This document shows positions 15,947-54,092 of a DNA stretch of 64,000 bases, one piece after another; position 1 is the stretch's first letter, and the number at the start of each line of letters is the position of its first letter. The stretch is from Paraburkholderia sp. Tr-20389. GTDB lineage: Bacteria > Pseudomonadota > Gammaproteobacteria > Burkholderiales > Burkholderiaceae. The notes below the pieces were generated by a model, which was not told where the DNA came from, did not search any database, and saw nothing but the letters and a program-made list of their open reading frames with translations. The position numbers and the translations under genes were made by a program. Location of the stretch: assembly GCF_017104565.1 (NCBI RefSeq), contig NZ_JAAGPD010000003.1, positions 186,001 to 250,000 on the forward strand, read 5' to 3'.

Positions 15947-15966
15947 TCCCGAAAACCCTCACCTCA
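15947..15966 (-). repeat. Dispersed Rep iteron copy
   Basis: TCCCG-AAAACC-CTCACCTCA is the reverse complement of the origin iteron AAAGGTGAG-N6-CGGGA. It lies in the gap between the LysR gene and the HD-domain gene, about 40 kb from the origin array, and is the most distant copy seen in this window. Confidence 0.7.
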
Positions 15967-16130
15967 AGCGGTTTCCGCGGCAGTTGGCAGAAAACCGCGC
16001 GCGGTTGGCAGCATCGCGCGTATCAATGCTTTTGCCGCGCACAAGGGCTCTCCTTACACTTTGATCACCCGCCGATCGCTCGCTTCGATACAGCGAACGG
16101 CCACCGTCGATCACGTTCTGGAGAACCGAA

Positions 16131-16820
16131 ATGAGCGAAATCATTGCAGGCATCAAGATCCCCGACAGCAAGATGGCACGCGAAGCGACGCAGCTCGTGC
16201 GCGATACCGAAACCGATCTGCTCTATCACCACTCGCGTCGCGTGTTTCTGTTCGGGGCATTGACGGGCGAGCGCAAGCGGCTGAAGTACGACCCGGAGTT
16301 GCTGTACATCGGCGCGATGTTCCATGACATGGGTCTGATGGAGAAATACAGCAGCGCGCACGATCGCTTCGAAGTGGACGGCGCGAATGCCGCGCGCAAC
16401 TTCCTGCAGGGCTATGGCATCGGTGAGAACGACATCGAGATGGTGTGGGACTCGATTGCGCTGCATACGACGCCGGGCATCCCGCAGTACAAGAAGCCCG
16501 TGGTCGCACTGGTGACGGCGGGCGTCGAAATGGACGTGCTGGGCCTCGCCTACGACGAGTTCTCGACGGAAGACCGCAAGCTGGTCGTCGCGGCGCATCC
16601 GCGCGGCGAGAAGTTCAAGGAAAACATCATCGATGCATTCGCGAACGGCACGAAGCACAAGCCGCTGACGACGTTCGGCAACGTGAAGGCCGATGTGCTC
16701 GCGTTGAAAGACCCGGAATACAAGCGCCTGAACTTCTGCAGCATCATCCTCGGCTCGGCGTGGAACGATTCGAACGTGCAAACGGGCGCGTGCCGCAATC
16801 CGGCGCACAACCACGCCTGA
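16131..16820 (+). CDS. HD-domain phosphohydrolase-like protein
   Basis: The 229-residue protein has the HD-superfamily metal pattern: HHSRR near residue 35, FHDMG near 65 (the HD pair), and a later HTTPG...GVEMD stretch with further ligands. It resembles small HD hydrolases of the cyanamide-hydratase-like group, but the substrate cannot be assigned. The ATG has GGAG 8 bp upstream. It is monocistronic, followed by a strong terminator. Confidence 0.75.
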   Translation: MSEIIAGIKIPDSKMAREATQLVRDTETDLLYHHSRRVFLFGALTGERKRLKYDPELLYIGAMFHDMGLMEKYSSAHDRFEVDGANAARNFLQGYGIGENDIEMVWDSIALHTTPGIPQYKKPVVALVTAGVEMDVLGLAYDEFSTEDRKLVVAAHPRGEKFKENIIDAFANGTKHKPLTTFGNVKADVLALKDPEYKRLNFCSIILGSAWNDSNVQTGACRNPAHNHA

Positions 16821-16901
16821 GCGCAATCACGATCGAGGCTGCTTCCTCGTCACGGGTGTGACGACCAAGCCGCTTGCAGTCTCCGCTCAAGCGTGCCTTT
16901 T

Positions 16902-16933
16902 AATCCGCGTTCTCGCGAACGCGGATTTTTTTC
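16902..16933. terminator. Terminator between convergent genes
   Basis: AATCCGCGTTC-TCGC-GAACGCGGATT is a perfect 11-bp stem followed by T residues on the + strand. It lies between the HD-domain gene and the convergent AraC-family gene and could act in both directions. Confidence 0.88.
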
Positions 16934-16947
16934 TTCCGTCTCGTGGA

Positions 16948-17910
16948 TTAACGCGCGACGCTCGCGCGCGATGTTCTGCGCACCGTGTGCGAAGGCAACT
17001 CGCCGAATTGTGCCTTGTACGCGGTGGCGAAATGTCCGAGATGCACGAAGCCCCACTGCGCAGCAGCATCGCTGACGGACAGATCCGCCTGCCGCGTATC
17101 GAGCAGCAGGCGCCTCACCTGTGCGAGCCGCAGCGATCGCAGGTAAGTGAGCGGATTGGTCTGCACGACGGCCTGGAAGCTGTTCTGCACCGTGCGCCGG
17201 CTCACGCGCAATTGTGTGCAGAGGCTTTGGATGTCGATGGGCTCTTCGGGATGGTTGATCACAAAGTCATGAATGCGTCGCACGATGTCGGCCTGGCATG
17301 CATACGTCAGCCGGTTCGAGGATGCGGGCACGTGGTACGCAAGCAGATCGACGAGCGCCTCGTTCACCTGATTGCGCACCGCGCGCTGCGCGTGCACGTC
17401 GTCGAAACCATCGGGCTGTGCGAGCACGCGTTCGATCAGCGTCGCGAGCTGCACGCCCGCGCGCGTGCAGGCGGCGTTCGGAATATCGAGCACGGTCCGG
17501 CGAAACAGGCTGTCGTCGAGATCGACGCCCGCGCAATCGGCGACGCCTTGCAGCATGTCCGAGTCGATCACGACGCCGATCAGCGACATATCATCAGGAG
17601 AATGAAACTCGAACGGCATGCCGCCCTGCGCCATCACAAAGGCGCCGCGATCGATGCGCACGCCGCCGAACGTGAATGCGCCGGCGCCCGCGAGCGGAAC
17701 GCCAAACGTCATATGATTCTCGGGCAACTGCCCCCGCTGCACGACACGCAGATTGGCCGATTCGTGGAAGACCTGCACGCCGTCCAGCGCAATCTGCTTC
17801 ACCGCGCTGCGAAAGGCGCCTGAGCCGATCTGGTCGTAACGCTGATCCCAGCCTCGCAGCGCGGCCGCGTGCGCATCGGCGTCGTCGAAGAACTGGTGAT
17901 GGACGTACAC
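16948..17910 (-). CDS. AraC-family transcriptional regulator
   Basis: The C-terminal 100 residues hold two AraC-type helix-turn-helix motifs (IDIQSLCTQLRVSRRTVQNSF and LSVSDAAAQWGFVHLGHFATAY). The N-terminal 200 residues form a cupin-like ligand domain of the EutR-like type. The start is uncertain. A TTG at 17928 is possible, but the GTG at 17910 has GAGGG five bases upstream and is preferred, giving 320 residues. A 6-bp-arm palindrome lies upstream of it. No obvious target operon is adjacent. Confidence 0.85.
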   Translation of the reverse strand: MYVHHQFFDDADAHAAALRGWDQRYDQIGSGAFRSAVKQIALDGVQVFHESANLRVVQRGQLPENHMTFGVPLAGAGAFTFGGVRIDRGAFVMAQGGMPFEFHSPDDMSLIGVVIDSDMLQGVADCAGVDLDDSLFRRTVLDIPNAACTRAGVQLATLIERVLAQPDGFDDVHAQRAVRNQVNEALVDLLAYHVPASSNRLTYACQADIVRRIHDFVINHPEEPIDIQSLCTQLRVSRRTVQNSFQAVVQTNPLTYLRSLRLAQVRRLLLDTRQADLSVSDAAAQWGFVHLGHFATAYKAQFGELPSHTVRRTSRASVAR

Positions 17911-17954
17911 GGGTGCCCTCAATCTCAAAAATGCGCCAAGTTGCGTAGAATAAA

Positions 17955-17970
17955 CCGACCAAGCGGTCGG
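17955..17970. promoter_or_regulatory. Palindrome upstream of the AraC gene
   Basis: CCGACC-AAGC-GGTCGG has perfect 6-bp arms and lies 44 bp upstream of the chosen AraC start. The layout looks like a TetR-type operator rather than an AraC site. The regulator that binds it is unknown. The rest of the gap to 18209 shows no gene. Confidence 0.4.
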
Positions 17971-18209
17971 GAAAATACGTTCGAGGGTTTATCCTGGGCG
18001 CTTTCGTCGGCTGGACGCGACAGGTGCCTGTTTCCCGCCGACGCCGCCAGACGCGCCTTCGCGCCCCGGCCTTCTTATTGTAGTCAGCGTCAAAATTCCG
18101 TCGAAGCCTTCGGAAACACCTGGCGCGCTAAAGAAAAGCCGTAGTGCGTGGCTGTCGCCGGAGTCCATTTACTTATATGCTAGCGAATCGTTTTTCTCGC
18201 TTCGTATCG

Positions 18210-18686
18210 ATGGTGACGTCCCGCTCGCGCACTACCACGCCGCACACCATGCACCGCAATCTGCCGATGCTGCTGCTGCGCGCGCGCGAACTCATGATGG
18301 CGCGATTCCGTCCGCTGCTGACGGCGCAGGGGCTCACCGAGCAGCAATGGCGCATCATTCGCGCGTTGCATGAGAACGGGCCGCTGGAGCCGCGGCAGTT
18401 ATGCGCGCTGTGTACGATCTCGAGCCCGAGTCTCGCCGGCGTGCTCGCGCGGATGGAAGATCTCGGCCACGTGACGAAAGAGCGCTTCGAAGACGATCAG
18501 CGGCGCGTGCGCGTGTCGCTGACGACGCAAAGCGCGGAAGTCGTCGAGCGGATGAAGCCGTTGCTGGAGGCGGAGTATCAGGCGCTGGAGCAGCAAGTCG
18601 GCACGAAGGTCGTCGAGGATCTTTATGTGGCTGTCGATGCGTTGATCAAAGCGCTGGCGACGGGCGAAATCCGCGAAGCGGAATGA
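18210..18686 (+). CDS. MarR-family regulator, HpaR-like
   Basis: The core matches HpaR, the repressor of homoprotocatechuate degradation: HRNLPMLLLRARELMMARFRP, then LTEQQWRIIRAL and the winged helix with SSPSLAGVLARMEDLGHV and DDQRRVRVSLT. The ATG at 18210 leaves about 14 residues before HRNLPM, typical of beta-proteobacterial relatives; ATG at 18177 or 18249 is also possible. It is convergent with the monooxygenase operon to the right and may respond to an aromatic acid handled there. Confidence 0.8.
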   Translation: MVTSRSRTTTPHTMHRNLPMLLLRARELMMARFRPLLTAQGLTEQQWRIIRALHENGPLEPRQLCALCTISSPSLAGVLARMEDLGHVTKERFEDDQRRVRVSLTTQSAEVVERMKPLLEAEYQALEQQVGTKVVEDLYVAVDALIKALATGEIREAE

Positions 18687-18732
18687 GACGACGCGACGCG
18701 TCATCTCAGCCACATGCACCGAGCGGGCATCG

Positions 18733-18912
18733 CTACTCACCCACCCCGTCCCCCGCCGCATCAATCAATCCCAACGATACATCCGCATCGCCGATCTTCT
18801 CGATCGCGAGCAACACAAAGCGCGCGAGAAACAGCGGCGCGCTGGCCTCGCCGAGTTGGGTCATCGTTTTGCACAACCGTGTGTAGACGACGTCGAGTTC
18901 TGCATCGGTCAT
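18733..18912 (-). CDS. DUF2783-like small protein
   Basis: This 59-residue protein starts MTDAELDVVYTRLC and matches the DUF2783 pattern (TRLCKTMTQLGE...LFLARFVLLAIEKIGD). It has a strong ribosome site (AAAGGAG) and starts 28 bp after the FAD monooxygenase gene, so it is the last gene of that operon. DUF2783 proteins are usually found beside class A flavin monooxygenases. An accessory role is likely but not known to me. Confidence 0.78.
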   Translation of the reverse strand: MTDAELDVVYTRLCKTMTQLGEASAPLFLARFVLLAIEKIGDADVSLGLIDAAGDGVGE

Positions 18913-18940
18913 CGCGTTCTCCTTTCGTTGTTTCGGTTCA

Positions 18941-20635
18941 TCAAGCCAGTGCGCGCACAATCGCCGCTTCGACATCGGCTGCGTCGGCATCGCGCCAGCG
19001 ACCCAGCACATGCCCGTCCGGCCGCACCAGATACACCGTTCCCGTCTTTGCGTCATATCGCTCGAAGATGCGCCCCGTGTGATCCCACGCGTGCACGCCC
19101 TTCGCTTGCGGATGCAAACGCGCGCTGAGCGGCACGATCCTGAACGGCACGCCGCGATCACGCAGCGCGGATACGAGTGCGCTGAAACTGTCGGGCACTT
19201 CGCCCTCGTCGCTGAAATACAGCGCGGTAAAGCGCGCACCGACGAGATCGGTCAAATGAGCCTCGCGCGCGTGCCCGCCTTCGGCCACGGTCAACGGATA
19301 CTCCGCCAGCACGGCGCCCGGCATCGGACCCACAGCGAACGCATCGCTGTCGGCGACATTCAGCGGCGAATCCACATACGTGATCGCCGACGTCTGCCGT
19401 GGATTGATCAGCGAGCGCACGCCCGGATGCATCACGGCAAGACTCAACACGGCTTTGCGCATCAGATCGAACGCGAACGACGGCGGTGCCATGAATTCGG
19501 TGCTCTTCGTGCCGTAGCTCAAGTTCTCGTGCGTAGCGGCGACGCGCTCGTCCGAATAGCTGTCGAGCAGCGACGCCGACGCGAGCCCCTTGACGACGAA
19601 CGCAAGTTTCCACGCGATGTTGTCCGCATCGTCGATACCCGAGTTCGCGCCGCGCACGCCGAAGATCGGCACGAGATGCGCGGCATCGCCCGCGAACATC
19701 ACGCGGTCGTGGCGATAACGTTCGAGCGTCAGCGCATTGGCCTTGTAGATCGTGATCCAGATCGGCGACCATTCGCCCTTCTCGCCCATCATGTCGAGCA
19801 GGCTTTGCACACGCGGCATCACGTTTTCGGGCTTCACCGCCTGTTCAGCATCCTCGCCGTCGCGCAACTGATAGTCGATGCGCCATACGTTGTCCGGCTG
19901 CTTGTGCACGAGCACGGTCGAACCGGGGTTCGACGAAGGGTCGAAATACGCGAGACGTTCCGTCGGCCGATCGCTGTGCAATTCGATATCGACGATCACG
20001 TAGCGCCCTTCGTAGCTCGTGCCTTGCAACTGCAAGCCGAGCGCTTCGCGGATCGTGCTGCGTCCGCCATCGGCTGCGACCACCCAGTTGGTGTCGAGCG
20101 CGTAGTCGCCATCGGGCGTGCTCAGATGCAGGGTCGCGCCGTCGTCGCGCGAATCGATCGACTTCACACGCGTCTGCCAGCGGATATCGATCAGATCGGC
20201 ACGCTTCTCCGCTGCATCGAGCAGAAACTGTTCGATGTGATATTGCGCGAGGTTGACCATCGGCGGCAGCTTCTGGTTCTCGTCCTGCGGCATCGTGAAG
20301 TGCAGCACTTCGGTGTCGCGATAGAAGCTACGTCCGCCCGTCCACGGCAAGCCCGTTTTCAGAAAACCTTCGACGGCGCCGAGGCGCTCGATGATCTCCA
20401 GGCTGCGACGCGAGATGCAGATCGCGCGGCTGCCGTAGCACACGGAATCGTCCGCTTCGATCAGCACGCACGGCACGCCGTGATTCGCGAGGCCGAGCGC
20501 AACGGCCAGCCCGACCGGCCCGCCGCCGACGATCGTCACCGCGTGGCGCTTTGCGTCCACGCCCTGCTTCAATTGCGGCACACGCGCCGCGTACTGTTTG
20601 GCCGCGAACGGATACGGTTTGAATTGCCTGTTCAT
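18941..20635 (-). CDS. FAD-dependent aromatic-type monooxygenase (class A, MhpA-like)
   Basis: The 564-residue protein starts at MNRQFKPYPF (ATG at 20635, AGGAG upstream). It has the three class A flavoprotein signatures: VGGGPVGLAVALGLANHG (FAD, near residue 35), ADGGRSTIREALG (DG motif), and FAGDAAHLVPIFGVRGAN (GD motif, near 310). A thioredoxin-like C-terminal domain follows, as in phenol hydroxylases and MhpA. The enzyme would hydroxylate a phenolic substrate with NAD(P)H and O2. It is flanked by an MFS carrier and a DUF2783 gene in one operon. Confidence 0.85.
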   Translation of the reverse strand: MNRQFKPYPFAAKQYAARVPQLKQGVDAKRHAVTIVGGGPVGLAVALGLANHGVPCVLIEADDSVCYGSRAICISRRSLEIIERLGAVEGFLKTGLPWTGGRSFYRDTEVLHFTMPQDENQKLPPMVNLAQYHIEQFLLDAAEKRADLIDIRWQTRVKSIDSRDDGATLHLSTPDGDYALDTNWVVAADGGRSTIREALGLQLQGTSYEGRYVIVDIELHSDRPTERLAYFDPSSNPGSTVLVHKQPDNVWRIDYQLRDGEDAEQAVKPENVMPRVQSLLDMMGEKGEWSPIWITIYKANALTLERYRHDRVMFAGDAAHLVPIFGVRGANSGIDDADNIAWKLAFVVKGLASASLLDSYSDERVAATHENLSYGTKSTEFMAPPSFAFDLMRKAVLSLAVMHPGVRSLINPRQTSAITYVDSPLNVADSDAFAVGPMPGAVLAEYPLTVAEGGHAREAHLTDLVGARFTALYFSDEGEVPDSFSALVSALRDRGVPFRIVPLSARLHPQAKGVHAWDHTGRIFERYDAKTGTVYLVRPDGHVLGRWRDADAADVEAAIVRALA

Positions 20636-20658
20636 CCAATGCTCCTGATTCGAAATCT

Positions 20659-22023
20659 TCAAGCGACGCTTGCACGCGGCGCTTCGCGTTTGTCCATCGG
20701 CAACAAGGTCACGACGATCACGCCGATCACGAGCAGCACCGCCGAATACAGCAGCCCAGACGAGAAGCTATGCGTCGCGTCCTTCAGCCAGCCGACGATC
20801 AACGGATTCAACGCCGAACTGATATTGCCCGTCGCGTTGATCACGGCAATGCCGATGGCGCGTGCACGGAAACTCAGGGCATGATCGGGCGTCGTCCAGA
20901 AGATCGACATCGCCGTGTACGAACCCGCCGACGCGAGGCACACGCCGAGCATGCGCAAGGCCGGGTTCGTCGAATATGCGGTGCACAACCAGCCGGCGGC
21001 GGAGAACAGCATCGGGATCATCAGGTGCCACTTGCGCTCCTGCTTGCGATCCGAACGTCGTCCCCACCAGATCATCGCGACGATCGTGCACACCTGAGGA
21101 ATCGCGGCGAGCAGGCCGATCGTGCGATTGCTAGCGTCGGCGCTGAAGCTCTTCACGATCAGCGGCGTCCACACGGCGACCATCGCCAGCGTGTTCACGA
21201 GACAGAAGTACGCAATCGCGAACTTCACGACCACCGGCGACAACAATTCGCTGACGATGCTTTGCGCGCCGCCCGTCTTCGTTTGCACGGTGACGTCCTG
21301 CCGATGCTCAGCCGCGAGCGTCGCGGCAAGCGCGCGCTTCTCCTCGTCGTCGAGCCAGCGTGCCTGCTGCGGACCGTCGTCGAGCCAGGCGTACACCACG
21401 AGGCCGAGAATCGCCGACGGCAGACCTTCCAGCAAAAAGAGCCATTGCCAGCCCTTCAGGCCCATCGTGCCGTCGAGCCCAAGAATGAAGCCCGACAACG
21501 CCGAACCGACAGCCGCCGTCACGGGCATCGCGATCATGAAGAGCGCGTTGGCGCGCGCCCGATACGCAGCGGGAAACCAGTAGGTCAGGTACAGCAGAAT
21601 GCCCGGCAAGAAGCCCGCTTCCGTCACGCCGACCAGCACGCGCAGTACATACAGCGTGCCGGGGCTGGTCGCGAACATCGTCGCCGTCGATGCGATTCCC
21701 CACGCGATCATGATCGTGCCGATCCATCTGCGCGCGCCGATGCGCGCCAGCACCACGTTGCCCGGAATGCCGAACGCGATGTACGCGACGTAGAAGAGCG
21801 TCGTCGCGAGCCCGAACTGCGTGCTCGTGAGCCCGAGGTCCTTCATCATCGTCAGGCCGGCGAAGCCGATGTTGATGCGATCGAGGAACGAGAAGAAGAA
21901 CAGCACGAACAGAAACCACAGCAGATGCCGCGATACTTTCGCGATCACGGGCTGTTCGTTCGTGTGCGGCACGCTGGTGGCGGGCGTCGCATGCAGCGCG
22001 CCGGCTCGCGAGGAGGATTCCAT
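20659..22023 (-). CDS. MFS transporter of the anion:cation symporter (ACS) family
   Basis: The 454-residue protein starts at MESSSRAGAL (ATG at 22023). It has about 12 membrane segments and the ACS-type first block, LFFFSFLDRINIGFAGLTMMKDLGL, as in phthalate, tartrate and 4-hydroxyphenylacetate permeases. Further conserved blocks are FGIPGNVVLARIGARRWIG and TEAGFLPGILLYLTYWFP. It ends 23 bp before the monooxygenase gene, so it probably imports that enzyme's aromatic-acid substrate. Confidence 0.85.
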   Translation of the reverse strand: MESSSRAGALHATPATSVPHTNEQPVIAKVSRHLLWFLFVLFFFSFLDRINIGFAGLTMMKDLGLTSTQFGLATTLFYVAYIAFGIPGNVVLARIGARRWIGTIMIAWGIASTATMFATSPGTLYVLRVLVGVTEAGFLPGILLYLTYWFPAAYRARANALFMIAMPVTAAVGSALSGFILGLDGTMGLKGWQWLFLLEGLPSAILGLVVYAWLDDGPQQARWLDDEEKRALAATLAAEHRQDVTVQTKTGGAQSIVSELLSPVVVKFAIAYFCLVNTLAMVAVWTPLIVKSFSADASNRTIGLLAAIPQVCTIVAMIWWGRRSDRKQERKWHLMIPMLFSAAGWLCTAYSTNPALRMLGVCLASAGSYTAMSIFWTTPDHALSFRARAIGIAVINATGNISSALNPLIVGWLKDATHSFSSGLLYSAVLLVIGVIVVTLLPMDKREAPRASVA

Positions 22024-22241
22024 ACCGTTGTCTCCGATGTTGACGCTATGCCGGACGCGAGGCCCGGTGCAATCGCTTCGACGAGCCGCGTTACATCGTG
22101 GGCGGCGCATGGCGATGCGTCGCAGTATGGAGGCCGGCAGCATGCCGCCTGTCCTCATTTTGGGTACAACATGAGAGCCGTTCGGGCCTGGGGAAAACGC
22201 TGACCGCGCTCAGCGGAAACGCGTCGCCAAAGCGGATCGCA

Positions 22242-23060
22242 TCAACCCTTGCCGGATCCGATGCACAGCGCAAACAACTGCCGCTGGCTCGAAATGCCGA
22301 GCCGCCGGAATGCGCGCTTCTGATACGTGACGACGCTCGTCGCCTTGATGCCCATCGTGTCGCCGATCTCCTGCGCGGTGCGCCCTTCGAGCACGCCTGT
22401 CAGGACGTCGAGTTCGCGCTTCGACAGTTCAGGGCACAGGCCGCGTACGCGCGCGAGCATCAGATGCGAAATCGCCATGTCGCGCTGACCGCAGATCGCG
22501 TAGTGATGCTTCGCCGCGTGCGCGATCAGCGGCGCCATCGCTTCGATCAACGCGATTTCGCGCGGATGGTAGTTGCCGAAGCGGCGGTCGCGATACAGGT
22601 TCACCGAGAGCCAGATATCGGCTGTCGGCTGCACGAGAAGCGACACGCGGTCCGACACGTTCGGCTGCTGATAGCACGCGGCGCGATACGCTTCGTTGAG
22701 GATGTCGTCGCTCGTCTGCTGATGCAGCACGAGCGTCGAGCCAGGCTTGTCGTTGCGCGCCGACGAAACGATCTTCTGATTGCCGTCGAGCGCATAGAAA
22801 TGGCGCGCATAAGTATCGGCGACATCGCGCAGAAAACGCCCGCCGCGATGGTCCGCCACCGACACCGTGCGCGGCCGGTTGCCGAATTCATACGCGAAGA
22901 TCGTGCACTGCGAAATCGCGGCGATATCGCCGAGCAGCTTCAGCACTTCGGCGGCGAGCGCATTCGAGTCGTCGCTGCCGATCGACGACACGAGCCCCGT
23001 CGCTCGGCTGAGATCCAGCTGCCCTTGTGAAACGGGACGGTCGAGGCGCCATGAACGCAT
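22242..23060 (-). CDS. LuxR-family transcriptional regulator
   Basis: The 272-residue protein has a C-terminal LuxR helix-turn-helix (residues 205-265: LSKRELDVLTGVLEGRTAQEIGDTMGIK...VVTYQKRAFRRLGI). The N-terminal 190 residues form an uncharacterised sensory domain with no receiver Asp and no clear acyl-homoserine-lactone pocket. It lies upstream of the MFS-monooxygenase operon in the same direction and is divergent from the SBP56 gene, so either could be its target. No luxI is nearby. Confidence 0.8.
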   Translation of the reverse strand: MRSWRLDRPVSQGQLDLSRATGLVSSIGSDDSNALAAEVLKLLGDIAAISQCTIFAYEFGNRPRTVSVADHRGGRFLRDVADTYARHFYALDGNQKIVSSARNDKPGSTLVLHQQTSDDILNEAYRAACYQQPNVSDRVSLLVQPTADIWLSVNLYRDRRFGNYHPREIALIEAMAPLIAHAAKHHYAICGQRDMAISHLMLARVRGLCPELSKRELDVLTGVLEGRTAQEIGDTMGIKATSVVTYQKRAFRRLGISSQRQLFALCIGSGKG

Positions 23061-23318
23061 GATTGGAAACGCAGCTTTGCGGCTAAAAAGGGGCAGAAAT
23101 GACGGTGATGTTGCGTCATTTTAGTCCGGTCTGCATCGCGCGATGCATGGCGCATTAACGCTGCTGCATTCAGATCGACGCAATCGCGTGTATCACATCA
23201 CATTCATCCGCAAGTCAGCGCGAAATTGCCTACAGTGAAAGCCCGAACGCATGCGCCGTCTTCGTTAGAGGTGCGTGCGATTCGCGTGCCGTATGCAACA
23301 TCCTCCGGAGACTGAGAT

Positions 23319-24713: not shown

Positions 24714-24720
24714 GCGTGTG

Positions 24721-25332: not shown

Positions 25333-25355
25333 CTGTCCGCAACGATCGATCCTGC

Positions 25356-25441
25356 TCCCGCATATCCTCACCTTTCGCTACAGTGCCGTGCGGGTTGCGA
25401 GGCAACTCACCGTTGCAGTGCTCCCGAATACCCTCACCTGA
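25356..25441 (-). repeat. Two dispersed Rep iteron copies
   Basis: TCCCG-CATATC-CTCACCTTT (25356-25375) and TCCCG-AATACC-CTCACCTGA (25422-25441) match the inverted origin iteron. Their starts are exactly 66 bp apart, six turns at 11 bp. They lie in the 328-bp gap before the BMP gene. The only other element seen in this gap is a weak inverted repeat, ATCCG-N8-CGGAT, at 25529-25546. Confidence 0.68.
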
Positions 25442-29412: not shown

Positions 29413-29432
29413 TCCCGAAAAGTCTCACCGAA
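29413..29432 (-). repeat. Dispersed Rep iteron copy
   Basis: TCCCG-AAAAGT-CTCACCGAA matches the inverted origin iteron, except in the last three positions. It lies in the gap between the yceI terminator and the MazG-like gene. Confidence 0.6.
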
Positions 29433-32474: not shown

Positions 32475-32476
32475 AC

Positions 32477-34211: not shown

Positions 34212-34231
34212 TCCCGAAAACGCTCACCTTT
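34212..34231 (-). repeat. Dispersed Rep iteron copy (perfect ends)
   Basis: TCCCG-AAAACG-CTCACCTTT is the exact reverse complement of the origin consensus at all fixed positions. It lies in the 208-bp gap before the ankyrin gene. A half copy (CTCACCTTG) follows near 34278. Confidence 0.75.
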
Positions 34232-37947: not shown

Positions 37948-37967
37948 TCCCGTAAACCCTCACCTTT
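37948..37967 (-). repeat. Dispersed Rep iteron copy (perfect ends)
   Basis: TCCCG-TAAACC-CTCACCTTT matches the inverted origin iteron at all fixed positions. It lies in the 293-bp gap before the hpnR-like gene. Confidence 0.75.
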
Positions 37968-44165: not shown

Positions 44166-44310
44166 TCCCGCAAAGCCTCACCATTGATCGCATCGTGCAC
44201 CTCGCGGCACTTTTGATGCTGCCCACGAAGCCTTATCCAGCAAGGGTTTGCGGCTGCTTGCGGTGCGCTGCTCCGACGCGTTTCGCTCACTCCCGCAGGT
44301 TCTCACCTTT
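44166..44310 (-). repeat. Two dispersed Rep iteron copies
   Basis: TCCCG-CAAAGC-CTCACCATT (44166-44185) and TCCCG-CAGGTT-CTCACCTTT (44291-44310) match the inverted origin iteron. A half copy in the other orientation (AAAGGTGAG) is at 44123-44131. They are the main content of the 381-bp gap 44105-44485. Confidence 0.65.
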
Positions 44311-44485
44311 AGGCCATGTGACCGGCTTCCATTGGCATACCCAGGTATACGGAAAGTGTGCGAGCGAAGCGAAAGCAGCCATGCATTTCTGTTTGGACGT
44401 CGTGCTAAATCGTTGATTTACCAGGCTTCTGCGTTCACCGATGATGTCTTCCGTCAACCGCATTCCTCTTCTGCCGGAGTTCATC

Positions 44486-45472: not shown

Positions 45473-45486
45473 GGTCGTGGTGCCGC

Positions 45487-46356: not shown

Positions 46357-46461
46357 AGACGCCTTCCGCTGCTTCGATGGGTCGCGTTGCCTGCGATTAT
46401 GAACGGCGTCGACGGGGTCGCGGTGATCGTCGTGACTGATCCGTTCGCACGATTGCGTCGT

Positions 46462-46670
46462 CAAGGTGAGAGGTTTCGGGACTCTGTTGTATTCGCGTTC
46501 GATGCCCCGTAAACGCTCACCTTTGATGCCGGCGCGGTCCATCCGGTTGACGTCGAATAGGTGCCGCGTTTGCTTTGAGTGCCTGTTTTAGGGGGTTTTC
46601 GTGTTTCAGGTGATGCGTGGCTCGCCTCAAAGCTTCACCGTAAACACAACTCCCGAAAAGCCTCACCCTT
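46462..46670. repeat. Cluster of three dispersed Rep iteron copies, both orientations
   Basis: CAAGGTGAG-AGGTTT-CGGGA (46462-46481) is in the origin orientation, while CCCCG-TAAACG-CTCACCTTT (46505-46524) and TCCCG-AAAAGC-CTCACCCTT (46651-46670) are inverted. The first two form an inverted pair 43 bp apart. This is the densest dispersed cluster and is the only notable content of the 355-bp gap 46357-46711. Confidence 0.7.
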
Positions 46671-46711
46671 CGCGTTCGAACCTGAAAAATGGATCGTACA
46701 GTGAGTGGCTA

Positions 46712-47239
46712 TCAGAACTTGAACTTCACCTGAAAGCCGAGCGTGAACGGCAGATTATCGGAAGGAATGGGTGGAATGACGATGATGTTCGCGCCGACGC
46801 GCTTGTATTCGAGCATCACGATAGGCGCCACGACCGGGCCGATCGTGTGATCGTGGCCGAGTCCCCAGTTGCCGTAGTTGTAGCCGGAGATGATGCCGCC
46901 GATCACCGCGAGGCGAATGAAGCTCCAGTGCACGAACTCCGGCGCCCAGACACCGCCGCCGTACCACGACGGGCGACGCAACGAATTGCGGAATCCGCCT
47001 GCCGTCAATGCCCATTGCCCGTTGAGCCAGCATTCGACACCCAGACCAGGATTGAACTGTTCGAAGTGCGTGTCAGGGTCGGGATTGATGTGATACGAGC
47101 CGATCATCGCATCGACCCACACGCCGCCGCTGCACCAGTCGGCCGCCTGCGCGCCCGACGTTTCCATCAAACCGATGACCGCTACGCAACCTGCCACGCA
47201 TGCACGACGAATCTTGTTCTCGATCTTTCCAAACGGCAT
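46712..47239 (-). CDS. Outer-membrane beta-barrel-like protein
   Basis: The 175-residue protein starts at MPFGKIENKIRRACVAG (ATG at 47239, GGAGAG upstream). It has a signal peptide ending SGAQA and a mature part of Gly/aromatic-rich beta strands (DWCSGGVWVDAMIGSYHIN, WYGGGVWAPEFVHWSF). It ends in VKFKF, with the C-terminal Phe typical of outer-membrane barrels. The size resembles small barrels such as PagP-like proteins, but no catalytic motif can be shown. It is monocistronic. Confidence 0.65.
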   Translation of the reverse strand: MPFGKIENKIRRACVAGCVAVIGLMETSGAQAADWCSGGVWVDAMIGSYHINPDPDTHFEQFNPGLGVECWLNGQWALTAGGFRNSLRRPSWYGGGVWAPEFVHWSFIRLAVIGGIISGYNYGNWGLGHDHTIGPVVAPIVMLEYKRVGANIIVIPPIPSDNLPFTLGFQVKFKF

Positions 47240-47452
47240 GTGCTCTCCGCAACCGGTCGCGTGCCGGCGTCTGAATGTCGCGATTAGTGTCGAATTGCTC
47301 TCCAGTCGCGCACTGTACCCCACAAACCCTACACTTGAGATGGAGTGCGCGCTCGGGACGACAACGCGCCTGCAGACGGCAACGATAGCGAACGAACGAT
47401 TGCAGCTTGGTGAACGCGCCCTGTGCGCGCTCACCGTTCACATGACCGTGGG

Positions 47453-47929
47453 TTAGAGGCCGAGGTCGGACAGGCCCGGATGATCGTCAGGACGACGGCC
47501 CAGCGGCCAGCGATACAGGCGCTCTTCTTCGCGGATAGGCTTGTCGTTGATGCTCGCATGGCGATACGCCATCAGGCCGTTCTCGTCGAACTCCCAGTTC
47601 TCGTTGCCGTAGGAACGGAACCAGTTGCCCGAATCGTCGCGCCACTCGTACGCGAAGCGCACTGCGATGCGGTTATCGGTGAACGCCCACAGTTCCTTGA
47701 TCAACCGATAGTCCAGTTCCTTCGCCCACTTGCGCTGAAGGAACGTGACGATCTCGGCGCGGCCCGTCGGGAACTCGGCGCGGTTGCGCCATTTGCTCTG
47801 CGGCGTGTACGCGAGCGATACGCGCTCGGGCTCGCGTGTATTCCACGCATCTTCGGCGGCACGCACTTTCTGGATCGCCGTCTCGCGCGTGAACGGCGGG
47901 ACGGGAGGACGTCTTTCGATATCGGCCAT
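47453..47929 (-). CDS. DUF1348 (NTF2-like) protein
   Basis: The 158-residue protein starts at [13 protein letters not shown] (ATG at 47929, GAGGAA upstream). The middle matches DUF1348: [48 protein letters not shown], an NTF2/SnoaL-like fold. The role is unknown. It lies 22 bp after the TetR gene in the same direction, so the TetR protein probably controls it. Confidence 0.85.
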
Positions 47930-47951
47930 GATGGTTCCTCGTTGAATTGCG

Positions 47952-48584
47952 TCAGGTGGACGCTCGCCGGTTCGACGAGCGGGTGTTTGCACTTGCGGAA
48001 TCGAGTAGCGGCCCGGCTGCGGCCCGTGCGTCCAGCGCGGCATCGGCATCGCCGCTGACGAGCGCGACGCCGATCGCGCCGTCGATCAGGATCAGCCACT
48101 GGCGCGACAGCCGCGCCGCGCGCCGCGCATCGCCGCCCGTCGCTGCGACGTATTCGTCGCATTGCGCACGCACGAATTCGAGCAGACGTTCCTTGTGTTC
48201 GCGTGCAACGACGCGGATCGGATCGTCAGGCGAAGCGATCTCACCCGCAGCGTTGAGAAACGCGCAGCCGTGAAAGTCGTCCGATAGAAACCATTCGCGC
48301 AGCACGTCGAACATCGCGAGCAGACGCGTGCGCGGACTCTTGCCACGGCGCAGCGTCCCGTCGATGAACCATTTCATCCAGCGTTCGTCGCGCCGTTCGA
48401 GCGCAGCCGCCACCAGCGCATCTTTCGATTCGAAATGCGTGTAGAAGCTTTTGCGCGCCGTACCAGATTGCCGGACGATCGCATCGACGCCCGTCGCGTG
48501 GATGCCGCCCGCGTAAATCAGCGCTTCCGCTGCATCGAGCAGACGCTCGCGCGCGCTGCTTTGTGTGTCGTCAGGAGTAGCCAT
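47952..48584 (-). CDS. TetR-family transcriptional regulator
   Basis: The 210-residue protein has an N-terminal TetR helix-turn-helix ([48 protein letters not shown]) and a C-terminal ligand domain of the YxaF/LmrA type. It is in an operon with the DUF1348 gene and divergent from a YceI lipoprotein gene. A candidate operator lies just upstream. Confidence 0.88.
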
Positions 48585-48594
48585 GCGCGAAGGG

Positions 48595-48610
48595 TAGAAC
48601 GATCATTCTC
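48595..48610. promoter_or_regulatory. Candidate TetR operator
   Basis: TAGAACGATCATTCTC has AGAA/TTCT arms around a GATC centre and resembles YxaF/LmrA-type operators. It lies 11 bp upstream of the tetR start, between the divergent tetR and YceI genes. Confidence 0.5.
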
Positions 48611-48692
48611 CTTCGTCAAGTGCTGGATCGCTTCGCATCGTCTGCCGGTTTGGCGCGTCATGCTTTATCGTGTCGGAGAATCGTTCAACAGG

Positions 48693-49337
48693 ATGAGTGT
48701 CATGAGCATCGTTTTTCGCCGTGCCATGTCGGCCGTCGTGATGTCGGCCGTGCTGGGCGCATGCACGCCACTGCAGGTCGTTACGCACACGGTCACGCAA
48801 ACGGAGACGCGCGTGCCCGTCGGTCAGTACAAGCTCGACCCGCATCACACGAGCGTCATATTCAACGTCGATCACCTCAAATACACGCGCTTCACGATGC
48901 GCTTCGACCGCGTGGCGGGTGAGATCGACTGGAAGGAAGGCGGGTTGGACAAGAGCCAGGTCACGGTGACGATCGACGCGGCGAGCATCGACACGAATGT
49001 CCCGTTACTGGACAAGATGGTGAAGGGAGCGGACATGCTCGACGTGGAGCGTAACCCGCAGATCCGTTTCGTCAGCACGCACTTTGAGCGTACGGGCGAC
49101 GCGCGCGGCAAGCTGACGGGCGATCTGACGATACGCGGCGTGACGCAGCCGGTCACGCTCGATGTCACGTTCAATGGTTACGGCCTCGATCCGCTGACGA
49201 AAGCCGATACGCTCGGCTTTTCAGCGGACGGGCAGTTCAGTCGCTCGAAGTTCGGTCTGACGACGTGGTATCCCGCTGTGGGCGATGACATTCACGTCGT
49301 CATTCAGGCAGAGGCAGCGAGGCCGCCTGCCGGTTGA
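48693..49337 (+). CDS. YceI-family lipoprotein
   Basis: The 214-residue protein starts at MSVMSIVFRRAMSAV (a second ATG lies at 48702) and has a lipoprotein signal ending VLGAC. The mature part is a YceI barrel: VPVGQYKLDPHHTSVIFNVDHLKYTRFTMRFDRVAGEIDW, TIDAASIDTNVPLLDKMVKG, LTGDLTIRGVTQPVTLDVTFNGYG. It is lipid-anchored, unlike the two soluble YceI proteins at 28-29 kb. The divergent TetR protein probably regulates it. Confidence 0.85.
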   Translation: MSVMSIVFRRAMSAVVMSAVLGACTPLQVVTHTVTQTETRVPVGQYKLDPHHTSVIFNVDHLKYTRFTMRFDRVAGEIDWKEGGLDKSQVTVTIDAASIDTNVPLLDKMVKGADMLDVERNPQIRFVSTHFERTGDARGKLTGDLTIRGVTQPVTLDVTFNGYGLDPLTKADTLGFSADGQFSRSKFGLTTWYPAVGDDIHVVIQAEAARPPAG

Positions 49338-49355
49338 GTCTGCTGTGCAGCGCGA

Positions 49356-50384
49356 TCAGACGGTCCAGTCGAGAATCACTTTGCCGCTTTCGCCAGACAA
49401 CATCGTGGCGAAGGCTTTTTCGTAATCGTCGACGGCGAAGCTGTGCGTGAGAATCGGCGAAAGATCCAGGCCGCTTTGCAGCATCGCGACCATCTTGTAC
49501 CAGGTCTCGAACATCTCGCGGCCATAAATGCCCTTGATTTCGAGCCCCTTGAAGATGACCTGCGTCCAGTCGATCGCCGTTTGCGCCGGCGGAATGCCGA
49601 GCAGCGCGATCTTGCCGCCGTGGTTCATCGCTTCGAGCATCGATGTGAACGCGCTCGGCACGCCCGACATTTCGAGGCCCACGTCGAAGCCTTCCGTCAT
49701 GTGCAGATCGCTCATCACGTCGCGCAACGATTCGCGCGACACGTTCACCGCGCGCGTCGCGCCCATCTTGCGGGCGAGTTCGAGACGGTAATCGTTGACG
49801 TCGGTGATCACGACATTGCGCGCGCCCACATGCTTCGCAATCGCCACGGCCATGATGCCGATCGGTCCCGCGCCCGTGATCAGCACGTCTTCGCCGACCA
49901 GATTGAACGACAGCGCCGTGTGCGTCGCGTTGCCGAACGGATCGAAGATCGCGGCGAGATCGTCGGAGATTTCAGGCGGAATCTTGAACGCGTTGAACGC
50001 GGGAATCACGAGGTATTCGGCAAACGCGCCTTCGCGATTCACGCCGACGCCGACCGTATTGCGGCACAGATGCCTGCGCCCCGCGCGACAGTTGCGGCAG
50101 AATCCGCACGTGATGTGCCCTTCGCCCGACACGCGGTCGCCGATCGAGAAGCCGCGCACTTCCTGACCCATTTCGACGATTTCGCCCACGTATTCGTGGC
50201 CGACGTGCATCGGCACGGGAATCGTTTTCTGCGCCCAGTCGTCCCACTTCCAGATATGAATGTCGGTGCCGCAGATCGCCGTGCGCGTGATGCGGATCAT
50301 CACGTCGTTATGACCCACTTCGGGTTTCTTCACGCGGGTCAGCGTGAGGCCCGGTGCGCGTTCAAGTTTTGCCAGTGCTTTCAT
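49356..50384 (-). CDS. tdh: L-threonine 3-dehydrogenase
   Basis: The 342-residue zinc-dependent dehydrogenase matches Tdh along its length: [16 protein letters not shown] (catalytic-zinc Cys), [12 protein letters not shown], a structural zinc cluster [15 protein letters not shown], the NAD motif [18 protein letters not shown], and GKIALLGIP. It oxidises threonine to 2-amino-3-ketobutyrate, the substrate of the upstream kbl product. The length equals E. coli Tdh. Confidence 0.95.
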
Positions 50385-50402
50385 TGATGTCGATGTCCCG
50401 TT

Positions 50403-51602
50403 TCAGATCACGCCAAGCGAACGGCCGACGCGCGCGAAGGCGTCGACGGCCCGATCGATCTGTTCAGCCGTGTGCGCGGCGCTCATCTGCGTGCGAATGC
50501 GCGCGCGGCCTTTCGGCACGACGGGATACGAAAAACCGATCACGTACACGCCTTCCTTCAGCAGCGCGTCCGCCATATTGGATGCGAGTTGCGCGTCGCC
50601 GAGCATCACGGGAATGATCGGGTGTTCGCCGGGCACGAGCGTGAAGCCGTGCGCGCTCATCGCCTGACGGAAGTGCGCGCCGTTTGCGCGCACGCGTTCG
50701 CGCAACTGCCTGCCTTCGTCGCTCGCGAGCAGTTCGAGCACGGTCAGCGATGCAGCCGCGATGCTCGGCGTGAGCGTGTTCGAGAAGAGATAGGGACGCG
50801 AGCGCTGCCGCAAAAGATCGACGATCTCCTGACGCGCCGCGACGTAGCCACCCGATGCGCCGCCAAGCGCCTTGCCGAGCGTGCCCGTGATGATGTCGAC
50901 GCGTTCGAGCACGCCGCAATGTTCAGGCGTGCCGCGTCCGTGTTCGCCGATGAAGCCGACCGCGTGCGAATCGTCGACCATCACGAGCGCGCCATAGCGG
51001 TCCGCAAGATCGCAGATGCCCGCGAGGTCGGCGATGATGCCGTCCATCGAAAACACGCCATCGGTCGCGATCAGCTTGAAGCGCGCGCCTGCCGCGTCGG
51101 CCTCGCGCAGTTTCGCTTCGAGATCGGCGAGATCATTGTTCTTGTAGCGGAAACGCTTCGCTTTCGACAGCCGCACGCCGTCGATGATGCTCGCGTGATT
51201 CAGTTCGTCGCTGATGATCGCGTCGTTGTCGTCGAGCAGCGTTTCGAACAGGCCGCCGTTTGCGTCGAAGCAACTGGAGTAAAGAATGCAGTCGTCTGTC
51301 TTCAGAAATGCGGACAGCGCGCGCTCGAGTTCCTTGTGAACCGTCTGCGTGCCGCAAATGAAACGCACCGACGCCATGCCGAAGCCGTCCTTGTCGAGGC
51401 CTTCTTTTGCCGACGCAATCAGGCGCGCGTCGTTTGCAAGGCCGAGATAATTGTTCGCGCAGAAGTTGAGGACGTCCGCGCCGCTCTCCAGCTGGATATC
51501 GGACGATTGCTGGCTCGCGATCACGCGTTCGGTCTTATGAAAACCATCGGCGCGAATCTGGTCGAGCGTGCTGCGCAAATGCGCGAGGAATGGGTCTCGC
51601 AT
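50403..51602 (-). CDS. kbl: Glycine C-acetyltransferase (2-amino-3-ketobutyrate CoA ligase)
   Basis: The 399-residue protein starts at [13 protein letters not shown]. It is a PLP enzyme of the alpha-oxoamine synthase family: [57 protein letters not shown], and the PLP-Lys motif [14 protein letters not shown]. It cleaves 2-amino-3-ketobutyrate with CoA to glycine and acetyl-CoA. It is cotranscribed with tdh (18-bp gap), and the divergent XRE-cupin protein is the likely regulator. Confidence 0.95.
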
Positions 51603-51697
51603 GAAGACGGCTCCTTGAATGGACGGCTCTGCGGCGCACCATACGGCGCGGCGGCCTGTTATAGTCGGTTTCAGTTTTATCGGAAATTTTCGTTTTT

Positions 51698-51713
51698 TCG
51701 AACTAAAGTTCGA
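51698..51713. promoter_or_regulatory. Perfect palindrome between kbl and the XRE-cupin gene
   Basis: TCGAACT-AA-AGTTCGA is a perfect 7-bp-arm palindrome. It is followed by a further TCGAAC at 51718 and lies 33 bp upstream of the regulator start and 95 bp upstream of kbl. It is the best candidate for the regulator's operator, controlling both directions. Confidence 0.6.
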
Positions 51714-51746
51714 TATGTCGAACAACTCTAATCGATAGGTCAGGAA

Positions 51747-52361
51747 ATGGCAAGTTCGGGAATGCGCAAGGGTTCGTCGGGGGCGGCGACGGCGGCGGCG
51801 CAGTCTGTATCGGTGCCGCCGCGTGTCGGCGAGCAGATTCAGCGGTTGCGCAGTGAACGCAAAATGACGCTCGACGATCTGTCGCGCGCGGCGGGCGTGT
51901 CGAAATCGATGTTGTCGGAAATCGAGCGCGATAAGGCGAATCCGACGATCGCCGTCGCGTGGCGGCTCACGAACGCGCTGGGTGTAAGCCTCGATTCGCT
52001 GTTCGCACCGCAGAAGGCGCCTGATCCGATCGCGGTGTCTGGCCCGCATGAGATTCCGACGTTGAGCGGCCACGAAGCGCGATACCAGTTGCGGGTATGG
52101 GGGCCGATCGAGCTGGCCGGCAAATTCGAATGGTACGAACTGACGTTGCAGCCGGGCGGCGCACTCGTGTCCAGCGCGCACGAGCCGGGGACGCGTGAAC
52201 ATCTGACGGTGTTGAACGGTGTCATCGACATCGACGCGGCGGGTACGACGAAGCGTCTGAAAGCCGCCGATACTGCGCGCTACGTCGCCGACGAGCCGCA
52301 TGCAATTCGCAACGCGGGCAAAGGCGAGGCGAAAGCGCTGCTCGTCGTGATTCACGGCTAA
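51747..52361 (+). CDS. XRE-family regulator with cupin domain (threonine-degradation locus)
   Basis: The 204-residue protein has an Ala/Ser-rich N-terminus, an XRE helix-turn-helix at 25-85 ([49 protein letters not shown]), and a C-terminal cupin ([14 protein letters not shown]...[11 protein letters not shown]). It is divergent from kbl-tdh. By position it likely senses threonine, glycine or a related amino acid. Confidence 0.88.
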
Positions 52362-52402
52362 TCCGAATCGCGATTCTCCTGCGTCACGCCGGTTGCAGCC
52401 GA

Positions 52403-52422
52403 TACTGTATGTTTGTACAGTA
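52403..52422. promoter_or_regulatory. LexA-type SOS box
   Basis: TACTGTATGTTTGTACAGTA matches the LexA consensus TACTGTATATATATACAGTA at 17 of 20 positions, including the essential CTGT-N8-ACAG. It lies 24 bp upstream of the next start codon, a normal place for repression. It is the only near-perfect SOS box noticed in this window. Confidence 0.75.
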
Positions 52423-52446
52423 TACGCAGTCCGACGGAGCCGAAGA

Positions 52447-52845
52447 ATGAACAAGCTGAACAACGAACAGGATCTGGCCGCGCTGCGCTTCAAGTCCGCC
52501 GCCCGCGACCTCGAACACATCGTCCGGCACATCGCAGCGCGGTACATCGTGCAGCAGGTGCCGCTCACATGGCGGCTTCTGCATGCGATCGAAGCCGAAG
52601 CGCTCGCGGATCTGGGTTTTGCCAGCCGGCACGATCCCTTCATGCTCGGGCTGTTTCAGCGGCCCGATAACTTCCAGTTTCCCGAGACCGACGAGGCCGT
52701 CGACTTCAGTCGATCGAATGCGTTGCCGGCTGCGTTCGCCTTTGCGGTCGCGGCTTACGACGAAGCGGAGAAAGCGAAAGCCGGGGCTGCAAGGCGGCGC
52801 TCTGCCGATCGCGAGCACGGTGGGGGACGTGCCTGGGGCGGGTAG
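52447..52845 (+). CDS. SOS-box-controlled conserved hypothetical protein
   Basis: The 132-residue protein starts at [16 protein letters not shown] with GGAG upstream. It is mainly helical and soluble ([47 protein letters not shown]), with a basic, Gly-rich tail. No catalytic motif is recognised. A near-consensus LexA box lies directly upstream, so it is probably induced by DNA damage. It stands beside the recombinase-like gene and the replication origin, which suggests a DNA-related role. Confidence 0.7.
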
Positions 52846-52898
52846 TGGGGTAGTGCCGTGCCCGCGTTCGTGTCGTGAAGTTCGGGCAGGCGATGGGA

Positions 52899-52914
52899 GT
52901 TTATGCGCGTAAAG
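52899..52914. repeat. parS-like site upstream of the recombinase-like gene
   Basis: GTTTATGCGCGTAAAG differs from the parAB palindrome core TTTATGCGCATAAA at one base. It lies 65 bp upstream of the recombinase-like start codon, about 6 kb from parB. Confidence 0.65.
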
Positions 52915-52978
52915 TCGGCTCGCCGCCGCTTATCGACTGACTACAATAACTTTTGCGCAACTAACGGAAAAACAGACT

Positions 52979-54043
52979 ATGGCCTCAACCGATCCTGTTG
53001 GCTCTGCTGATTCGTCGCCGGTTGTCGCTGAAGCCGATCTATTCGACCGTGAACGTCAGGACTGGCTCATCGATCCGCGCACCGCGTTCGATGCCTGGCT
53101 CGCCGGACAAAACTTCCGCAACTCTTCGGCGGAGGTGTATCGCGCGCAGTGGGGGCTTTTTCTCGAGTGGCTGCAGGCGCGTCACAAGAATCTTGTGACC
53201 GTCGATATGCGCTCGATTGCAGAGTTCGTCGGTGGTTTGTCGATTCGAAAACCGCAGCGTGCCCGTTATCTGCGGTTGATCGAGCGTGTGCTCGATCACG
53301 TGCGCGAGATCGAACTGGCGTCGACCAATCCGGCCCGATTCATTGCTCAGGATGGCGAAGCGGAATGGCGCAATGCACGCGACAACGAGCCAACTGGATT
53401 TCTCACTATCGCGGAACGTTCGGCATTGATCGCCTATCTGTTTTCGCCGGTAACCAATCTGTCGTCGGCGCAACGCTGGCGCGAGCGGCGCGACCGGGCG
53501 TTGATTGCCGTATTTCTCGGCGGTGGGATCAAGACCGGGGAGGCTCGAACGCTTTCGATGAGTTGCGTGACACCGGGCTCGCCGTGGGTCGTGATCGAAG
53601 CGACGAATCCATTGTTCACCCGCAGGACGCGACTCGCACCGTTCGCCGTGTCGGTGCTCGACGCGTGGCTCGATGAACGCAAACAGGCCGAACTACCAGG
53701 CGAACTGGTCTTCCCCGCGTCGCCGTCGGGACGTCCGATGCACAAGGCGACGATGCTCCGGGCCGTCGATGCACTGGTCGATGCAGCCGGATTCGGACAG
53801 TCGCGCGAAGCACGCGCGAGTCCGCATACGTTGCGCAACTCGTTTGCAGCCGACCTGTTCGAGAGCGGCATGGAAGTGGACGTTGTCGGACAGTGGCTTG
53901 GATTCGCGCAAGCTGTTTCCGCGAACCGACTGCACCGTGCGTGGAAAATCTGGAGTGAACAGGAAAAATTCGACGGCGACCTGCGACTCGCTGAAGCGTC
54001 GGCGCCGTCTGAAGATCACGACGGCGCGCGGGGCGACGGTTAG
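52979..54043 (+). CDS. Tyrosine-recombinase-like protein lacking the catalytic tyrosine
   Basis: The 354-residue protein has the tyrosine-recombinase layout: an N-terminal SAM-like core-binding domain (about 30-125) and a catalytic-fold domain (140-330). Several catalytic residues are changed. The first Arg is Lys185 (GGGIKTGEARTL), His283 and Arg286 of the H-x-x-R box remain (PHTLRNSF), and the His/Trp after LG is Phe309. No Tyr exists anywhere after residue 283. It should bind DNA but not cut it. It sits between an SOS gene and kfrA at the origin, with a parS-like site upstream. Confidence 0.85.
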   Translation: MASTDPVGSADSSPVVAEADLFDRERQDWLIDPRTAFDAWLAGQNFRNSSAEVYRAQWGLFLEWLQARHKNLVTVDMRSIAEFVGGLSIRKPQRARYLRLIERVLDHVREIELASTNPARFIAQDGEAEWRNARDNEPTGFLTIAERSALIAYLFSPVTNLSSAQRWRERRDRALIAVFLGGGIKTGEARTLSMSCVTPGSPWVVIEATNPLFTRRTRLAPFAVSVLDAWLDERKQAELPGELVFPASPSGRPMHKATMLRAVDALVDAAGFGQSREARASPHTLRNSFAADLFESGMEVDVVGQWLGFAQAVSANRLHRAWKIWSEQEKFDGDLRLAEASAPSEDHDGARGDG

Positions 54044-54048
54044 ACGGC

Positions 54049-54092
54049 TCCCGTAAACCTTCACCCGTGCGGTCCCGTAAACGCTCACCAAT
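54049..54092 (-). repeat. Two dispersed Rep iteron copies between convergent genes
   Basis: TCCCG-TAAACC-TTCACCCGT (54049-54068) and TCCCG-TAAACG-CTCACCAAT (54073-54092) start 24 bp apart, close to the 22-bp spacing in the origin array, but are inverted relative to it. They occupy the 72-bp gap between the recombinase-like and kfrA-like genes. Confidence 0.65.

Follow-up and report, generated by a model that had tools for sequence, protein, structure and literature searches.

Dispersed copies of the chromosome-2 Rep iteron in Paraburkholderia and related genera suggest a spread-out brake or timer on replication start

In the case of Vibrio cholerae chromosome 2, sites of the initiator RctB that lie outside the origin have been shown experimentally to bind this initiator and to lower copy number (PMC3937223). 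The control of Vibrio chromosome 2 is covered by a review (PMC6090056), and RctB sites outside ori2 are described also in a Vibrio paper of 2025 (PMC11711613). In Burkholderia, Du et al. 2016 (PMC4948915) published the iteron of B. cenocepacia c2, mentioned others throughout the genome and, in a legend, indicated a second c2 cluster 140 kb away. We analysed the surroundings of rep, the gene of the Rep_3-family initiator of chromosome 2, in Paraburkholderia sp. Tr-20389, using a window that comprises the whole stretch of 64,000 nucleotides at positions 186,001-250,000 of a 346,768-bp contig (NZ_JAAGPD010000003.1) of its 9.0-Mb genome. Besides the iteron array that adjoins rep, the window holds thirteen dispersed sites, each a copy of GGTGAG-N6-CGGGA, the iteron of Rep on chromosome 2, a chromid (Table 1). 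This is the same iteron as that of B. cenocepacia c2, read as the reverse complement of the published consensus (PMC4948915). The properties of the dispersed copies described below suggest that they may act as a spread-out brake or timer on replication start.

The likeness to Vibrio chromosome 2, which was pointed out in the initial annotation of this DNA, is in our judgement the best comparison. Similarly to the RctB sites, the sites described here, known from sequence, are origin-type initiator sites on the same secondary chromosome, near its origin. They differ in being more numerous (some 17 within 160 kb, in addition to distant pairs), in belonging to a Rep_3 initiator, in sharing an orientation near the origin, and in the presence of one copy in a gene. 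A Pfam search of Rep for an RctB-family domain was negative; only Rep3_N and Rep3_C were found at E <=0.001. The datA locus and the chromosomal DnaA boxes of Escherichia coli are likewise off-origin sites that hold initiator once they are replicated (PMC3937223). That initiator is DnaA, whereas here it is a plasmid-type Rep. Plasmid control-locus iterons, such as those of P1 incA, also lie outside the origin and lower copy number, but they form one compact locus beside rep, while in our case single sites and pairs are spread over more than 100 kb.

A search of the window with the pattern AAAGGTGAGN6CGGGA, at up to two mismatches, gave 27 matches as compared to 0.27 expected from shuffled sequence, and recovered eleven of the thirteen sites at the coordinates assigned to them initially. 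The remaining two, at 29413 and 54049, diverge further, either in the bases ahead of the core or at a single core position, and were recovered with a matrix built from 17 origin copies. When the whole contig was scanned with this matrix and with 200 column-permuted matrices as controls, 17 dispersed matches of at least 19 bits were found, whereas the controls gave 0.055 such matches on average and never more than 1. Three more contig matches reach at least 9 bits (15.3 bits, genic; 12.8 bits, site 54049; 10.8 bits, genic), but only the class of at least 19 bits is significant, since at 9 bits the permuted matrices average 4.7 matches and reach 20.

Relative to the rep start, the strong sites extend from -146 kb to +14.6 kb, and thus they are not limited to the spread of about 40 kb noticed originally but continue to the left. 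All but one of the 17 are located in predicted gaps between genes, as called by a small custom script rather than by an annotation pipeline. The exception is a 27-bit site 14.6 kb right of rep, in the coding sequence of a gene that we take to be hpnD from its sequence (its Pfam match is SQS_PSY). The initial statements that no copy lies inside a gene or to the right of rep hold, therefore, within the window, where all 13 sites are in predicted gaps, but not beyond it. The intergenic status of the sites at 46462 and 46505 depends on a shorter start of a LysR gene, which is supported by the Pfam domain beginning only at residue 71.

To quantify conservation, 12 of the dispersed sites (54049 was omitted) were aligned with orthologous gaps of 3-8 other species in genomes with both flanks aligned, with alignment gaps counted as differences and 34 flanking bases considered. 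Identity to the window was 99% (762/770) in the 11 core bases, 77% (323/420) in N6 and 59% (1402/2380) in the flanks. Judged from these identities, selection on the core bases is strong while the spacer and the flanks drift.

The site in hpnD mostly reads TCG GTG AGR ATW TTC GGG, in some cases with ATC or a valine codon, and its strict 17-mer is retained in 37 of 38 genomes of the iteron-bearing lineage (loci L201-L238). The arginine codon at the site is AGA or AGG in 36 of these 38 loci, as compared to 6 of 922 other arginine codons (L201-L230), and in L202 the arginine is replaced by serine with the 17-mer still intact. None of ten hpnD loci from genera near the control level of iteron matches has the site; in Mycetohabitans, one of the two loci carries it and the other a one-base variant. 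The site was confirmed by gene in the window's genome and in three others (G001, G091, and G200), and its position, 14-18.5 kb right of rep, is occupied in all 12 genomes used for the orientation count below. In the text and legends of Du et al. 2016 (PMC4948915) we saw no treatment of conservation, orientation, gene context or an hpnD copy. Literature with little coverage of subscription journals yielded no study of how the copies are conserved or oriented, or of the hpnD copy, and for Burkholderia only Du et al. 2016. What is known is the iteron itself and the mention of copies elsewhere; its conservation, its polarity and the hpnD copy appear to be new.

The copies are not equally frequent on all replicons. 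In the window's genome the strict 17-mer has 35 matches, 29 of them on the window's contig, and a reversed control pattern has none. In five two-contig genomes (G022, G031, G034, G075, and G091), 155 strict matches were counted, of which 145 belong to the contig that carries rep and 10 to its partner; over these five whole genomes the control pattern gives 15 matches. The sites concentrate on chromosome 2 and reach their highest density in the 65 kb or so next to rep, on the side of a kfrA-like gene. Strict matches average 31.2 per genome (range 20-42) in 56 genomes of five iteron-bearing genera; the other genera scanned are mostly at or near control level, with 1 to 26 in Mycetohabitans (g8). 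One two-contig genome of 6.7 Mb, G024, was left out of the replicon count: the contig that carries its chromosome-2 rep and all 30 of its matches is at least 6.55 Mb long, and because of this location a fusion of its chromosomes is possible, with ori2 and its sites retained. Three very small symbiont genomes (G104, G124, and G154) have four strict matches each, tightly grouped.

The orientation of strict matches was counted in 11 complete or near-complete genomes and in the window's own, with G089, G034, the genomes of genus g12 whose match lists were incomplete and the window's own origin copies omitted. Genus g12 is taken as Burkholderia, since the published B. cenocepacia c3 iteron is present in all five of its genomes that were searched. 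On the left arm up to 65 kb from rep, 109 of 115 sites are on the minus strand, i.e., point away from the origin, and 6 on the plus strand; on the right arm up to 300 kb all 17 are on the plus strand, 12 of them at the hpnD position. Beyond 300 kb, 26 are plus and 23 minus. As the genomes are related, these counts are not independent, and the count of 43:3 behind one P value, hand-thinned to about one genome per clade, is rough. Base composition predicts only 1.8:1, so that GC skew is too weak as the cause, and site orientation is independent of the direction of neighbouring genes. All 8 left-arm sites of G200 are minus; on its right arm, the hpnD site, a 117-kb site and the eight scored copies of an array are plus, and three sites linked to an H-NS-like gene are minus. 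Near the origin, then, the sites of both arms as a rule point away from it, the H-NS-gene-linked group excepted. The inversion of 12 of the 13 window sites relative to the origin copies agrees with the initial annotation, but the sites are not one-sided.

The H-NS-linked group comprises a pair of sites downstream of the gene in the window's genome, G001 and G091, and three sites in four g12 genomes (G200, G185, G227, and G108; Pfam was checked in the first two). In these four, the H-NS-linked sites adjoin an iteron array of about 23-bp spacing at 136-187 kb from the origin, which is a cluster of the kind reported by Du et al. and is nearer in form to P1 incA.

The genes that neighbour the sites in the window encode LysR, HD-domain, Bmp, YceI, MazG-like, MFS, radical-SAM, histidine-kinase and dehydrogenase proteins, and some have no Pfam match. 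The same gaps are present in G001, where distances to the left flank match within a few bases at most sites. In G091 the neighbours are different and the sites are its own; shared by ortholog are the H-NS pair and the hpnD site, and by place the gap between the recombinase and kfrA-like genes. A minus-strand site in this last neighbourhood was found in 78 of 79 relatives tested (L069 was skipped; L137 is without the site), and it sits in a convergent gap. The dispersed set does not look like a regulon, as its neighbours have no common function and differ between clades while the set persists.

Rep possesses the Rep_3 winged-helix domains, with both Pfam matches above cut-off. Of 98 genomes of the genus that were searched, 97 contain a relative; the protein is 94% identical to a protein on chromosome 2 of P. 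xenovorans LB400, and weakly matches the bound R6K Pi structure 2nra (E 0.0042). On its right are parB and parA, and on its left the iteron array, the kfrA-like gene and a tyrosine recombinase gene. The array of direct repeats has 17 copies by the matrix rule; with one at 55793, found by pattern search, and a GGTGAA variant at 55704 the total is 19, so the number given originally is a fair one. The same array is present at Trinickia and Caballeronia loci, and strict matches were found in all relatives examined for it except L137. An inverted TCACC-N6/7-GGTGA repeat precedes rep in the loci of 79 of 80 relatives; built of GGTGA halves, it matches what is expected of a Rep_3 operator and is likely to be one.

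Table 1. Dispersed iterons, origin array and adjoining genes in the window
Feature	Position	Strand	Remarks
Dispersed iteron	15947..15966	-	26.5 bits; core kept in 6 aligned species
Dispersed iteron	25356..25375	-	29.9 bits; core kept in 3 aligned species
Dispersed iteron	25422..25441	-	26.1 bits; core kept in 3 aligned species
Dispersed iteron	29413..29432	-	23.6 bits; core kept in 3 aligned species
Dispersed iteron	34212..34231	-	32.7 bits; core kept in 8 aligned species
Dispersed iteron	37948..37967	-	30.9 bits; core kept in 4/5 aligned species, one base changed in G021
Dispersed iteron	44166..44185	-	25.8 bits; core kept in 8 aligned species
Dispersed iteron	44291..44310	-	19.6 bits; core kept in 8 aligned species
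Dispersed iteron, sole plus-strand one of the 13	46462..46481	+	27.4 bits; core kept in 5/6 aligned species, one base changed in G042
Dispersed iteron (last base G)	46505..46524	-	27.3 bits; aligned in 6 species
Dispersed iteron	46651..46670	-	24.5 bits; core kept in 6 aligned species
Tyrosine recombinase gene	52979..54043	+	Pfam Phage_integrase
Dispersed iteron variant (GGTGAA), recombinase/kfrA-like convergent gap	54049..54068	-	12.8 bits; aligned in 8 species
Dispersed iteron, same recombinase/kfrA-like gap	54073..54092	-	26.7 bits; neighbourhood site in 78/79 relatives
kfrA-like DNA-binding protein gene	54116..55321	-	Pfam KfrA_N
Origin iteron array, ~19 copies	55704..57149	all +	Pattern search, matrix scan, reading by eye
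Inverted half-iterons TTCACC-N7-GGTGAG, likely Rep operator	57184..57202	.	Ahead of rep; operator role predicted
rep, Rep_3-family initiator of chromosome 2 (449 aa)	57270..58619	+	Pfam Rep3_N, Rep3_C
parB	58665..59729	-	Pfam ParB_N, HTH_ParB
parA	59754..60416	-	Pfam AAA_31, CbiA

The identification of the dispersed motif as a DnaA box or as parS was rejected. The motif is not TTATCCACA, and no DnaA box at up to one mismatch is present at the 13 sites; GGTGAGN6CGGGA is not palindromic, while parS is a 16-bp palindrome (PMC5450999). At the same threshold there are no DnaA boxes near the iteron array. Four such boxes lie within 61 bp at 63389-63449 of the window, 6 kb right of the rep start, and at least three boxes inside 150 bp, 4-11 kb from rep, are present in 53 of the 72 relatives with enough flank; the cluster was not found in the Caballeronia loci tested. 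Two further observations concern rep itself. P. phenoliruptrix (L137) has a second rep copy (91%) without an iteron array, preceded by genes that look conjugation-like by eye; we considered it as a natural change of specificity, but with only an operator-like repeat and no array it is uninformative. On NZ_CP099630.1, a 447-kb plasmid of P. fungorum, the match covers only the first 72 Rep residues (89%).

Copies at larger distances and on other replicons were also found. An opposed pair of sites about 240-250 bp apart is present on chromosome 2 at 1.6-1.9 Mb from rep in the genomes measured (G091, G037, and G075) and occurs also in G022 and G084; it precedes an alpha/beta hydrolase gene in G091 and G037 (coordinates 7585 and 7821 in L262, 7861 and 8108 in L264). 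Strong iteron pairs on other contigs are those of G001:C4 (L265 7526-7564; L266 7627-7679) and G000:C6 (L156 7091-7132), one of them between a kfrA-like gene and a recombinase gene and the others in a homologous ssb/Toprim plasmid- or element-like region. The c3 iteron, in its published consensus (PMC4948915), has 31 matches in five g12 genomes, on a single contig per genome, which form an origin cluster with one or two outliers in four of the five. Hence on c3, too, copies of the replicon's own iteron, which is a different one, lie away from the origin, although far fewer. In G227 and G108 the near outlier lies 9-11 kb past its rep, in the orientation of the array and in a convergent gap. On chromosome 1 we found no convincing conserved iteron; a crtS site there need not resemble an iteron. 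Of the chromosome-1 candidates for a crtS-like site, one is shared by G108 and G227 and another by G227, G185 and G084. They lie in or at genes that look phage-derived by eye, and in the second case the codons involved, those of a methylase-like protein, are ordinary; both were taken as coincidence.

We consider it probable, at roughly 60%, that the dispersed copies are extra sites for the chromosome-2 Rep outside the origin, which restrain initiation. This reading draws on the excess of matrix matches over permuted controls, the conserved core and the kept hpnD codons, on the concentration of strict matches on the rep-bearing contig and the persistence of the set among unrelated neighbours, and on the GGTGA half shared with the inverted repeat ahead of rep, the c3 parallel and the Vibrio precedent. 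According to such a mechanism, Rep would bind the dispersed iterons, and the leftward fork would double the 13 sites within the first 42 kb. The doubled sites may then soak up free Rep (titration), and/or Rep on dispersed sites may pair ('handcuff') with Rep on the origin array, and by one or both of these means the origin could not re-fire at once. The fork would meet nearly every near site at its GGTGAG end, a side which perhaps eases the displacement of Rep.

Several points weigh against restraint of initiation by extra Rep sites. Plain titration needs no orientation, yet nearly all of the near-left sites share one. Both Rep binding and an effect on copy number are predicted here from sequence features. 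Early titration explains neither the conserved pair at 1.6-1.9 Mb from rep nor the pairs on another replicon and in a mobile-element-like region. The left arm between 65 and 300 kb is mixed (25 plus, 22 minus), and the H-NS-linked group points toward the origin; it keeps its orientation to its own gene and is on the left in Paraburkholderia and on the right in g12, toward the origin in both; in G020 the pair at -134 kb is of the opposite sign. One of the 38 hpnD genes, L213, has lost the site. Of the 10 site groups on the window's contig, 8 occupy tandem gaps and the other 2 convergent gaps, so that promoter effects are possible there.

A further reading, which we put forward only tentatively, is that of an initiator field polarised by replication. 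Single iterons on both arms, oriented by fork direction, would be read in order by the fork, and Rep at each would be stripped or remodelled depending on the side of approach, which could provide a ruler of distance or time before re-firing. If true, the direction of the sites on the DNA, and not only their number, would carry information, and the need for it would be strong enough to force rare codons in hpnD.

It is doubtful that the sites serve polar fork control, in which Rep on an oriented iteron would slow the fork or signal to it according to the side of approach, with an effect on elongation and not on initiation. The strand bias on both arms, its independence of neighbouring gene direction and its excess over composition speak for it, while polarity is lost past 65 kb on the left, the H-NS-linked sites are reversed, and titles and abstract openings in the literature yielded no report of iteron-bound initiators as polar fork barriers. 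A role in organising the origin domain, with Rep forming bridges between the sites and the array so that the region near the origin is folded or paired for segregation, seems rather unlikely. The clustering around rep, parAB and kfrA and the H-NS-gene-linked sites are consistent with it, but it relies on the same sequence data as titration, none of which are in its favour, and the motif is not the 16-bp parS palindrome (PMC5450999). It is still less likely that the sites regulate genes through Rep or another protein, e.g., the KfrA-like one, with the match to the iteron being incidental. The prevalence of tandem gaps on the window's contig and the G001 pair in a kfrA-like/recombinase gap of another replicon would agree with this, whereas the neighbours have no common function, the sets differ between clades, and the hpnD site is in coding sequence; the site between recombinase and kfrA occupies a convergent gap, as do 6 of 8 non-genic site groups in G200, where gaps of this type make up 27% of intergenic bases. 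The view that the copies are neutral remnants of the origin repeat or arose by chance, in favour of which one could cite the iteron-like repeats 'throughout the genome' of Du et al. (PMC4948915) and the 10 other-contig matches that stay within the control count of 15, is refuted for the conserved set by core versus flank conservation, the hpnD codons, the concentration on chromosome 2 and the permuted matrices, in line with the initial view that the pattern is not neutral.

In a 2026 survey that includes Burkholderia strains, the identification of 'timers' in further systems is named as still to be done (PMC13342612). Our results bear on how second chromosomes beyond Vibrio are limited to one round of replication per cell cycle, and the dispersed set provides defined bases to delete or flip. 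The copy in hpnD can be removed by synonymous recoding with the protein left untouched, and it represents a case in which a chromosome-maintenance signal appears to override codon choice in a gene.

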